Source of the DNA: Verrucomicrobiota bacterium
GTDB lineage: Bacteria > Verrucomicrobiota > Verrucomicrobiia > Limisphaerales > PALSA-1396
Reading direction: 5' to 3'
Length of the DNA: 64,000 bases
Assembly: GCA_016200005.1 (NCBI GenBank)
Contig: JACQFP010000053.1
Location: 62,001 to 126,000, forward strand
The notes beneath the pieces are model-generated. The model was not told the origin of the DNA and did no database searches. It worked only from the letters and a program-made list of their open reading frames with translations. The position numbers and the translations under genes are program-made. Position 1 is the stretch's first letter. Each line of letters begins with the position of its first letter. This document shows positions 26,165 through 27,694 of the stretch, piece by piece.

Positions 26165-27694
26165 GTGAGCAATCTGGTTGATCATATTGAAGAATCCATA
26201 CTCACCCGCCGATTGTTCCGGCGTGGCCAATCAATCCTCGTCGCTGTCTCCGGTGGGCTGGACTCGATGGTCTTGCTTTATTCACTTCATCAACTGGCGG
26301 CAAAACAGAACTGGCGTCTGGTGGTGGCTCACTTCAACCATCAGCTCCGGGGTCGGAGCAGTGACGCAGATGAAACATTGGTCCGCCAGACCGCGACCAC
26401 GCTTAAACTGCCCATCGTTGTTGAGCGCGCCCATGTCAAACAGTTCGCCGCTCAACGCGGGTTGTCCGTCGAAATGGCCGCGCGCCGGTTGCGTCACGAA
26501 TTTTTTGCGCGGACCACCCGCACCCTCAACTCTCAACTCTCAACTCTCAACTCTCCTTTCGTGGTTGCCTTGGCGCATCACGCCGATGATCAGGTCGAGC
26601 TCTTTTTTCTCCGGTTGTTGCGCGGCACGGGCGGCGAAGGGCTGGCCGGAATGAAATGGGTGACCGGACTCTCAATTCTAAACTCTCAACGCTCAACCAA
26701 ACTGCGGCTGGTCCGGCCGTTGCTCGATCTGGACAAGGCGGCGTTGGCAGGTTTCGCCCGGCAACAAGGCATTAAATTTCGCGAAGATGCCAGCAATCGG
26801 TCGGTTGAATTTCTGCGGAATCGAATCCGCCACGAACTGATTCCGCTCTTGCGAAAGCACTACCAACCCGCCCTGGACCGGACGACGCTGCGCCTGATGG
26901 AGATTGTCGGTCAAGAGGCGGCGTTCGTTACGCAAACCGCGAGCGCCTGGCTGAACTCTCACCTGCCCACTCACTCACCTGCCAACCTACGGTCTTCGAA
27001 AGTGGGAAAGTGGGAAAGTGGGAAAGTGGCAAAGACACTCAGCTTAACTCTCAACTCTCATCTTTCATCTCTCAACTTTCTGGATTTGCCTGTTGCGGTG
27101 CAACGTCGGGTCGTTCAGCTTCAGTTGTTGGAACTTGGGGTGGCTGGGGATTTTGATCTGGTTGAGGAACTGCGCGGCGCAACCGACCGGGTGATCACGG
27201 TAACTCCCCAACTCTCCCTGTATCGTGATTCCTCTGGGCGGATTCATACAACAAGACCTGAAACGAATCCATTTGAGAGCGCGCAAACAACACTTGAATT
27301 CACCGGGAAAAAGGGACGGACGGTGTTTGATTGTGTAAAAATCCAGTGGCAGATCGAACCGGGCGGACTGCCAAGCTTTCGACCGTCAACGCTCAACTCC
27401 CAACCCTCAACTTTCCCTTGTGAGCATTTTGACGCCGACAAGGTTGGTTCACCCATTGTGCTGCGGCATTGGCAACCAGGTGATCGGTTTCAGCCGATTG
27501 GGATGTCGTCGCGAGTGAAATTACAGGATTTGTTCACCAATCAAAAGATTCCGCGCAGCGAACGGCGTGGATTGATTGTAGCGGTAAGCGCCACTGGCGA
27601 ACTGTTTTGGGTGGAAGGAATGCGAATTTCCGAGCTTTTCAAGCTAGACAAGAGGACGGTTCGCCGGTTGAAATGGGAATGGCGGCGGCGTTAA
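26165..27694 (+). CDS. tilS: tRNA(Ile)-lysidine synthetase
   Basis: The GTG-started product has 509 residues. The PP-loop SGGLDS is at residues 29-34 (ILVAVSGGLDSMVLLYSLHQ). VVAHFNHQLRGRSSDADE, VEMAARRLRHEFF, LAHHADDQVELFFLRLLRGT and FREDASNRSVEFLRNRIRHE are all standard TilS signatures. The enzyme makes lysidine in the anticodon of tRNA-Ile (CAU), normally essential. It is longer than most family members because several tracts of heptanucleotide repeats (first copies at 26525-26552) add linker residues such as TLNSQLSTLNS in frame. It lies directly before ftsH, a conserved order in many bacteria. Confidence 0.93.
   Translation: MSNLVDHIEESILTRRLFRRGQSILVAVSGGLDSMVLLYSLHQLAAKQNWRLVVAHFNHQLRGRSSDADETLVRQTATTLKLPIVVERAHVKQFAAQRGLSVEMAARRLRHEFFARTTRTLNSQLSTLNSPFVVALAHHADDQVELFFLRLLRGTGGEGLAGMKWVTGLSILNSQRSTKLRLVRPLLDLDKAALAGFARQQGIKFREDASNRSVEFLRNRIRHELIPLLRKHYQPALDRTTLRLMEIVGQEAAFVTQTASAWLNSHLPTHSPANLRSSKVGKWESGKVAKTLSLTLNSHLSSLNFLDLPVAVQRRVVQLQLLELGVAGDFDLVEELRGATDRVITVTPQLSLYRDSSGRIHTTRPETNPFESAQTTLEFTGKKGRTVFDCVKIQWQIEPGGLPSFRPSTLNSQPSTFPCEHFDADKVGSPIVLRHWQPGDRFQPIGMSSRVKLQDLFTNQKIPRSERRGLIVAVSATGELFWVEGMRISELFKLDKRTVRRLKWEWRRR
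26525..26552. repeat. Heptanucleotide tandem repeat CTCAACT x4 inside tilS
   Basis: Four perfect copies of ctcaact in frame with tilS. Degenerate relatives of the same heptamer lie at 26669-26696 (actctca, attctaa, actctca, acgctca), around 27047-27080, and at 27384-27411 (cgtcaac, gctcaac, tcccaac, cctcaac). An eight-base repeat, gtgggaaa, lies at about 27002-27033. All are within the tilS reading frame. Confidence 0.9.

Follow-up and report, generated by a model that had tools for sequence, protein, structure and literature searches.

The window, which is the whole stretch of 64,000 nucleotides analysed, contains a tilS gene encoding a tRNA(Ile)-lysidine synthetase, and this gene shows short tandem repeats at four sites (Table 1). 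The gene product matches the profiles TIGR02432 (7e-51), TIGR02433 (4.3e-9), PF01171 and PF11734, and it has both a PP-loop domain, with the SGGxDS motif, and the TilS C-terminal domain. The named TilS relatives nearest to it are records of Verrucomicrobia subdivision 3 / Limisphaerales. A sequence-only reading of this DNA had named the gene tilS and had described in it four perfect ctcaact units, degenerate relatives of these units and an octamer gtgggaaa run, all of them keeping the frame. Each of these features was seen: site 1 measures 4.4 units, the degenerate tracts, which are CTCAACT-like with at most five mismatches per 21 bases, lie a few bases off the earlier coordinates, the octamer array shows the unit GAAAGTGG, a rotation of gtgggaaa, and all the repeat tracts are in the tilS reading frame, which is open up to the stop. 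At the third site the tract was found as described, and it is better taken as part of one composite insertion, formed by a weak CTCAACT-like piece, the octamer array and a degenerate CTCAACT tract. Exact period-7 runs of at least 21 bases number three in the window, one of them in tilS, against a mean of 0.0 in 100 dinucleotide shuffles, and CTCAACT-like places number six, five of them in tilS, against 0 or 1 per shuffle in 20 shuffles. The tilS tracts are real and beyond chance. The other seven-base tracts of the window are given in Table 1; the ORF containing the ACGCCTC array shows no Pfam match at 1e-8. Upstream of tilS, ORF 23451-24680 contains a 15-base tandem repeat of 2.4 copies (window 24079-24114).

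Table 1. Position of tilS and of the repeat tracts in the window.
Feature	Position	Strand	TilS residues	Remarks
tilS, tRNA(Ile)-lysidine synthetase, 509 aa	26165-27694	+		GTG start; stop 27692-27694 included; open frame, profile matches
Site 1, perfect CTCAACT array, 4.4 units	26525-26555	+	121-131	Tandem-repeat measurement
Site 2, degenerate CTCAACT tract	26664-26701	+	167-179
Site 3, composite insertion	~26951-27082	+		Bounds approximate
Site 3, weak CTCAACT-like piece	26951-26974	+
Site 3, octamer array, GAAAGTGG x 4.6	26998-27034	+	278-290
Site 3, degenerate CTCAACT tract	27038-27082	+	292-306
Site 4, degenerate CTCAACT tract	27376-27417	+	404-418
Degenerate CTCAACT tract	58892-58927 (58891-58931 as a CTCAACT-like place)	-		C-terminal end of the 3-dehydroquinate synthase gene (58893-59993, -)
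Period-7 array, unit GCATCAC	60504-60541	+		Within the short-chain dehydrogenase gene (60010-60891)
Period-7 array, unit ACGCCTC	62113-62153	+		Within ORF 60970-62409

The TilS of the window was compared with that of the single same-genus genome drawn (G001, locus L004; G- and L-numbers label the genomes and loci compared, G000 being the genome of the window). Both proteins show 76% identity over residues 2-264 and 66% over residues 305-508, and the G001 protein is without the four tracts, having 54 residues fewer at these sites. The net gain of the window TilS is eight residues at site 1, five at site 2, 34 at site 3 and seven at site 4, so that the tract sites are empty in the relative. The gain at sites 1 and 2 falls short of the length of the array, and older sequence was therefore probably overwritten; the solved TilS structure 3a2k shows gaps opposite these two sites. 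In a model of the window TilS (AlphaFold2, 35 sequences, mean pLDDT 88.2), site 1 is predicted at the end of helix 102-124 and in the loop that follows (pLDDT 79 for block 121-130), and site 2 in strands 166-171 and 178-183, together with the turn that joins them (91 for 161-170 and 67 for 171-180). The octamer part of site 3 is the region of lowest confidence (50 and 57 for the blocks covering residues 271-290), the CTCAACT tract of the same site is mostly placed in helix 287-302 (80 for 291-300 and 94 for 301-310), and site 4 is placed in a loop before the C-terminal domain (56 and 64 for the blocks covering residues 401-420). The proposal that the tracts add residues in linkers or surface loops would thus agree with the predicted structure at two sites and in part at another, but not for the CTCAACT tract of site 3, which is modelled as a confident helix. 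Among 93 TilS loci of relatives (L002-L030 and L061-L124, some from the same organism and a few partial), heptamer arrays were found in two: L107 contains two arrays of other heptamers, which correspond in position to sites 3 and 4, and L111 contains one array of another heptamer, which corresponds to site 3.

Period 7 also stands out over a larger part of the genome. The sample contains the window and 40 further stretches, 858 kb or 13% of the genome, and it is not random, since its contigs were picked for length from a list of 21-mer matches. Exact runs were taken as at least 12 self-matches at periods 3-24. There are 49 runs of period 7, 14 of period 14 and four of period 21, both multiples of seven, five of period 16, three each of periods 3, 8, 13 and 18, two each of periods 12 and 23 and one of period 20, and none of periods 4-6, 9-11, 15, 17, 19, 22 and 24. 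When three-base blocks were shuffled locally in 20 rounds, the mean was 0.0 for period 7 and 0.05 to 0.25 for periods 5, 6, 8 and 9. A looser scan of the same 858 kb gave 62 arrays of period 7, five of period 8 and one of period 10, and none of periods 5, 6, 9 and 11. The 49 exact runs are made of 21 units: CTCAACT has 10 runs, AAATCCG nine, CCTCAAC five, ACGCATC four and AAATCGT three, two units have two runs each and fourteen have one. The period is constant and the unit varies. Genes of the sample were predicted with a simple codon-usage finder made for the purpose (543 genes, 83% coding), and they contain 29 of the 49 exact and 37 of the 62 loose period-7 arrays; as 17% of the sample is non-coding, the density of arrays per base remains higher outside coding DNA.

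The three AAATCCG arrays found in genes at C22:188122-188159, C22:231158-231192 and C6:65889-65924 of G000 lie between inverted flanks of 24-25 bases, which are shared between loci over 23-29 bases, and it may be a palindromic element that carries these three arrays along. No flank in common with other arrays was found at E 1e-3 for the two tilS arrays included in the comparison. In 423 kb of tilS loci that were not selected for repeats (L061-L124), runs of period 7 are no commoner than those of period 6: five runs of period 7, in three loci, five of period 6, three of period 5 and one each of periods 9 and 12. Loci L002-L030 (107 kb) contain two runs of period 7 and one of period 11, and loci L125-L140, from other groups (109 kb), contain one run of period 7. 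The strong period-7 excess probably belongs to this genome and some others, and not to the whole order.

The CTCAACT unit is dispersed in the genome and outside it. In the 6.54-Mb genome, the 21-mer of three units shows 21 exact matches and 284 with at most three mismatches, overlapping ones counted. The exact 21-mer is found in 27 of the 196 genomes of the order, the genome of the window among them. Among 387 genomes drawn from the phylum it occurs in 15, every one of them in the class of the window; several of the class matches are one long array in one place. Read backwards, CTCAACT is a rotation of itself, so the reversed pattern is no control for the pattern search, and genomes matched only backwards (G047 and G166 in the order; G201, G398 and G538 outside the class) do contain the repeat, with its phase shifted. 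In viral contigs, 48 stretches (L270-L317) contain the exact 21-mer. CTCAACT shows no stop in any of the three frames, each of which reads as a rotation of LNSQLST, and its complement shows a stop in every frame, so that within a gene the repeat can persist on the coding strand only. The 858-kb sample contains 45 separate CTCAACT tracts (at most four mismatches). Of these, 17 are within predicted genes, eight in number, and all 17 are on the coding strand; the period-7 repeats overall are not mainly intergenic. In eight other genomes, 40 of 42 exact tracts are in the longest open frame of their own strand, and the remaining two (L201, L219) are at the edge of an open frame. The recurrence of one unit bears on the explanation that each array grew by slippage from a chance seed in its own gene, and was not copied from elsewhere. 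The number of units in the sample, with 14 of the 21 seen once, and the presence of about ten units in one loop of LeuS, described below, agree with local birth; however, a few units dominate, and CTCAACT recurs in its 45 tracts and, exactly, in 27 genomes of the order, which speaks against chance seeds because these are not expected to give one and the same unit. We consider local birth unlikely.

Many of the named genes that contain arrays are housekeeping genes. In the genome of the window, the hosts LeuS, ProA, Der, BioA, HemC, MutL, MurG and UvrA each pass the cut-off of one or more NCBIfam models, and one further host, a HemN-like radical SAM protein, falls below it. LeuS contains two CTCAACT tracts, and UvrA, of 1128 aa (G000 C6:65591-68977; L184:5591-8977, minus strand), contains five period-7 arrays of several different units. 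The hosts in relatives include PurM, RecG, QueA, GlnS, RimO, MetG, a DnaK-type chaperone and a CusA-type efflux pump. Besides the efflux pump, the hosts that are not housekeeping include protein kinases and two prepilin-like ORFs, both recognised by eye. The sequence-only reading was confined to tilS, and its scope has to be widened, since many other genes and other seven-base units are involved.

LeuS and HemC were followed in relatives. LeuS was searched in 32 genomes, 23 of them picked as carriers of the exact 21-mer and nine without it; 30 loci were returned, none from G001 and G164, and the loop before the DLYVGG motif was read in 29. This loop contains a period-7 array in 16 of the 29 genomes, mostly picked carriers, and neither this rate nor that of HemC is that of the order, because 23 of the 32 genomes were picked for the repeat. 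Eight of the nine loops of genomes without the 21-mer were read, and two contain an array. In all 16 arrays period 7 comes first among periods 4-12, with z from 3.6 to 9.1 and p 0.003, which is the floor of the test. About ten units were recognised by eye: CTCAACT in G000, G104, G174 and G185, CTCAACG in G160, an inverted pair of CTCGACC-like arrays in G076, G195 and G003, AAATCCG in G081, CAGTCCG in G100, CTGCAAC in G011, CTTGAAC-like units in G151 and G052, and others in G125, G144 and G186. The presence of about ten units in one loop indicates that the loop was repeatedly colonised. The 13 loops without an array include short ones (G042, G023, G039 and G033) and palindrome-like fillings, seen by eye; G047 (L258) and G010 (L259) show domain-sized insertions, of 573 and 591 bases, in the same loop. 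In a LeuS tree in which several deep nodes are weak, G104 and G125 are short-branch sisters (support 0.96) with different arrays, and G003 is apart from G076 and G195 despite their like arrays. Close relatives can thus have different arrays in one loop, and separate lineages can have similar ones. In L231, the LeuS of G104, about 95 residues (approximately 409-502 of the query) resemble part of another protein, some 570-610 aa long, which occurs separately in many of the searched genomes.

HemC gives a weaker picture. Of its 30 loci, 27 loops were read, and in six of them period 7 comes first with z of at least 3.2. A CTCAACT tract occupies one and the same site in the HemC of G000, G001 and G003, with less regularity in the latter two, and the loop has 45 residues in all three genomes although the letters of the tract differ. 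Other heptamers are found in G010 and G052 and, weakly, in G011, and CTCAACT carriers such as the f26 genomes read show no array in this loop. It could be that the tracts are kept by selection, either because a binding protein or recombination makes use of the DNA or because the peptides are useful, and the filling of the same HemC site in three genomes, together with the presence of CTCAACT at the same LeuS site in G000 and three f26 genomes, would be in line with it. In other genomes, however, the same loops are occupied by unrelated units or by other sequence, or are nearly empty, and the arrays are often degenerate, so that selection seems to us quite improbable.

The same loops bear on contingency-type variation of tilS, which had been offered as one of two meanings of the tracts and according to which slippage by one unit would switch the gene off and on in part of the population. 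As in contingency loci, the unit length is not divisible by three and the arrays are in coding sequence, gain or loss of one seven-base unit breaks the frame, and the first tilS array is perfect over 31 bases. The different LeuS arrays of the close relatives G104 and G125 show that arrays turn over in evolution. Exact CTCAACT tracts also lie just before a prepilin-like hydrophobic start, identified by eye, in L199 near 2887 (G104) and in L226 near 5055 (G076); the vicinity of an ORF start is the more usual place for a switch, and a change of frame could act there. The tilS tracts, in contrast, are in the middle of the gene and have about four units, three of the four tracts being interrupted, and HemC, the one site whose length was followed, shows a loop equally long in three genomes. 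The host of a contingency locus is expected to be dispensable or surface-related, but the named hosts include many housekeeping enzymes, such as LeuS, Der, MurG and UvrA. TilS itself is required to decode AUA and, in the bacteria studied, is essential. Contingency-type variation of tilS is not supported by these data, and we regard it as very improbable.

Two enzymatic sources of the arrays were considered. A DRT10-like reverse transcriptase, related to telomerase, could make tandem-repeat cDNA that is then built into breaks; such enzymes exist (PMC12632851), the repeat has a fixed short unit, and G000 shows two RVT_1 matches. But the RVT_1 profile (PF00078) gave a match in five of 16 genomes, and eight tract carriers (G104, G195, G174, G185, G160, G076, G164 and G186) gave none, these being draft genomes searched with one profile, which a divergent enzyme could escape. 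A reverse transcriptase was rejected as the array source on the absence of RVT_1 matches from these drafts with this one profile, and of the explanations weighed here it has the smallest probability. A REP-associated or IS200-type transposase (Y1_Tnp, PF01797) was also rejected: it is present in 13 of the 16 genomes and its distribution is unrelated to the tracts, with no match in the carriers G185 and G076, and five and seven matches in G023 and G009, respectively, both without a LeuS array.

We therefore prefer, with a probability of about 0.78, the explanation that the tilS tracts are a tolerated invasion by in-frame copies of a dispersed period-7 tandem repeat, which is carried also by some relatives. 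Tolerated invasion by an intergenic repeat was the other meaning offered by the sequence-only reading; the invasion is borne out by the dispersed unit and by the empty sites in the same-genus TilS, and the word intergenic is too narrow, with more than half of the loose arrays in predicted genes. The process would begin in a genome where seven-base tandem arrays far outnumber those of other short periods, as is the case in the 858-kb sample. An array would reach a new place through a DNA-level event which can add to the local sequence or overwrite it, and the likeliest event of this kind would be templated repair or replication slippage copying an existing array. Within genes, CTCAACT would survive on the coding strand only, as its tracts in the sample do, and, judging from what remains, the survivors would be those with a net change divisible by three that fall in a tolerant part of the protein. 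The array would then change by point substitution with its length kept, as HemC suggests and as may have occurred in tilS, and the translated peptide would be a passive addition.

A search of open-licence literature found no paper that joins Verrucomicrobia with heptanucleotide and tandem repeat. The repeat, as peptide or as DNA string, shows no occurrence in a limited set of this literature, and the open-licence papers found on Pedosphaera and tandem repeats appear to deal with other subjects. The STRR heptanucleotides of cyanobacteria form several unit families per genome, and several heptanucleotide families per genome are found here too; we know of no STRR heptanucleotides in the interior of many housekeeping proteins. 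PMC4692102 mentions three heptanucleotides for Calothrix, cites the over-representation of heptamers in many bacteria, and describes the heptameric repeats GGGAATC and GGGGA(C/T)T of Xanthomonas and Nostoc, which are G-rich and quadruplex-forming, with 7-11% overlapping ORFs in Xanthomonas and 68% intergenic in Nostoc. The arrays are dispersed as they are here, and have a preference for four units, but the CTCAACT unit is not rich in G, and predicted genes contain 37 of the 62 loose arrays. The TAACTGA heptamer direct repeats of Beggiatoaceae, Cyanobacteria and Bacteroidetes (MacGregor 2015, PMC4679880) resemble the present ones in being dispersed seven-base direct repeats with stops in all frames of one strand, found in distant taxa and with no known mechanism; they are mostly intergenic and, in ORFs, mostly at protein ends, whereas many of the present ones lie in the interior of enzymes, with several in one gene and with many units. 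Rickettsia palindromic elements, as described in PMC10969869, have about 150 bp, are palindromic, have their own ORF and form in-frame insertions in unrelated genes. They share with the present repeats the dispersal in frame within unrelated protein-coding genes, and differ in that tilS contains simple CTCAACT arrays, some 30-45 bases long. Of the two marks of these elements and of MITE-like elements, the heptamer arrays show the one, which is to lie in frame in protein genes that are unrelated, while the other, a palindrome or terminal inverted repeats copied as a unit, was not seen for the two tilS arrays compared. Dispersed heptamer arrays were already known; here many arrays are inside genes, in frame, essential enzymes included.

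The genome of the window is one whose short tandem repeats are mostly heptameric and lie in frame inside many genes, housekeeping ones included. As seven is not a multiple of three, period 7 is unlikely to come from selection on protein. It is conceivable, and put forward here tentatively as a doubtful extension, that a DNA-writing process with an intrinsic seven-base step spreads heptamers through genomes and across families and is a steady source of new loops in essential enzymes; if so, the same loop would get a different seven-base word in different lineages. Period-7 arrays overwrite sequence as well as add to it, and simple DNA repeats would thereby be a route to adding or rewriting parts of essential proteins. 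The LeuS, HemC and TilS loops, filled in some genomes and empty in others, are natural replicates, with which the way arrays are written becomes testable.
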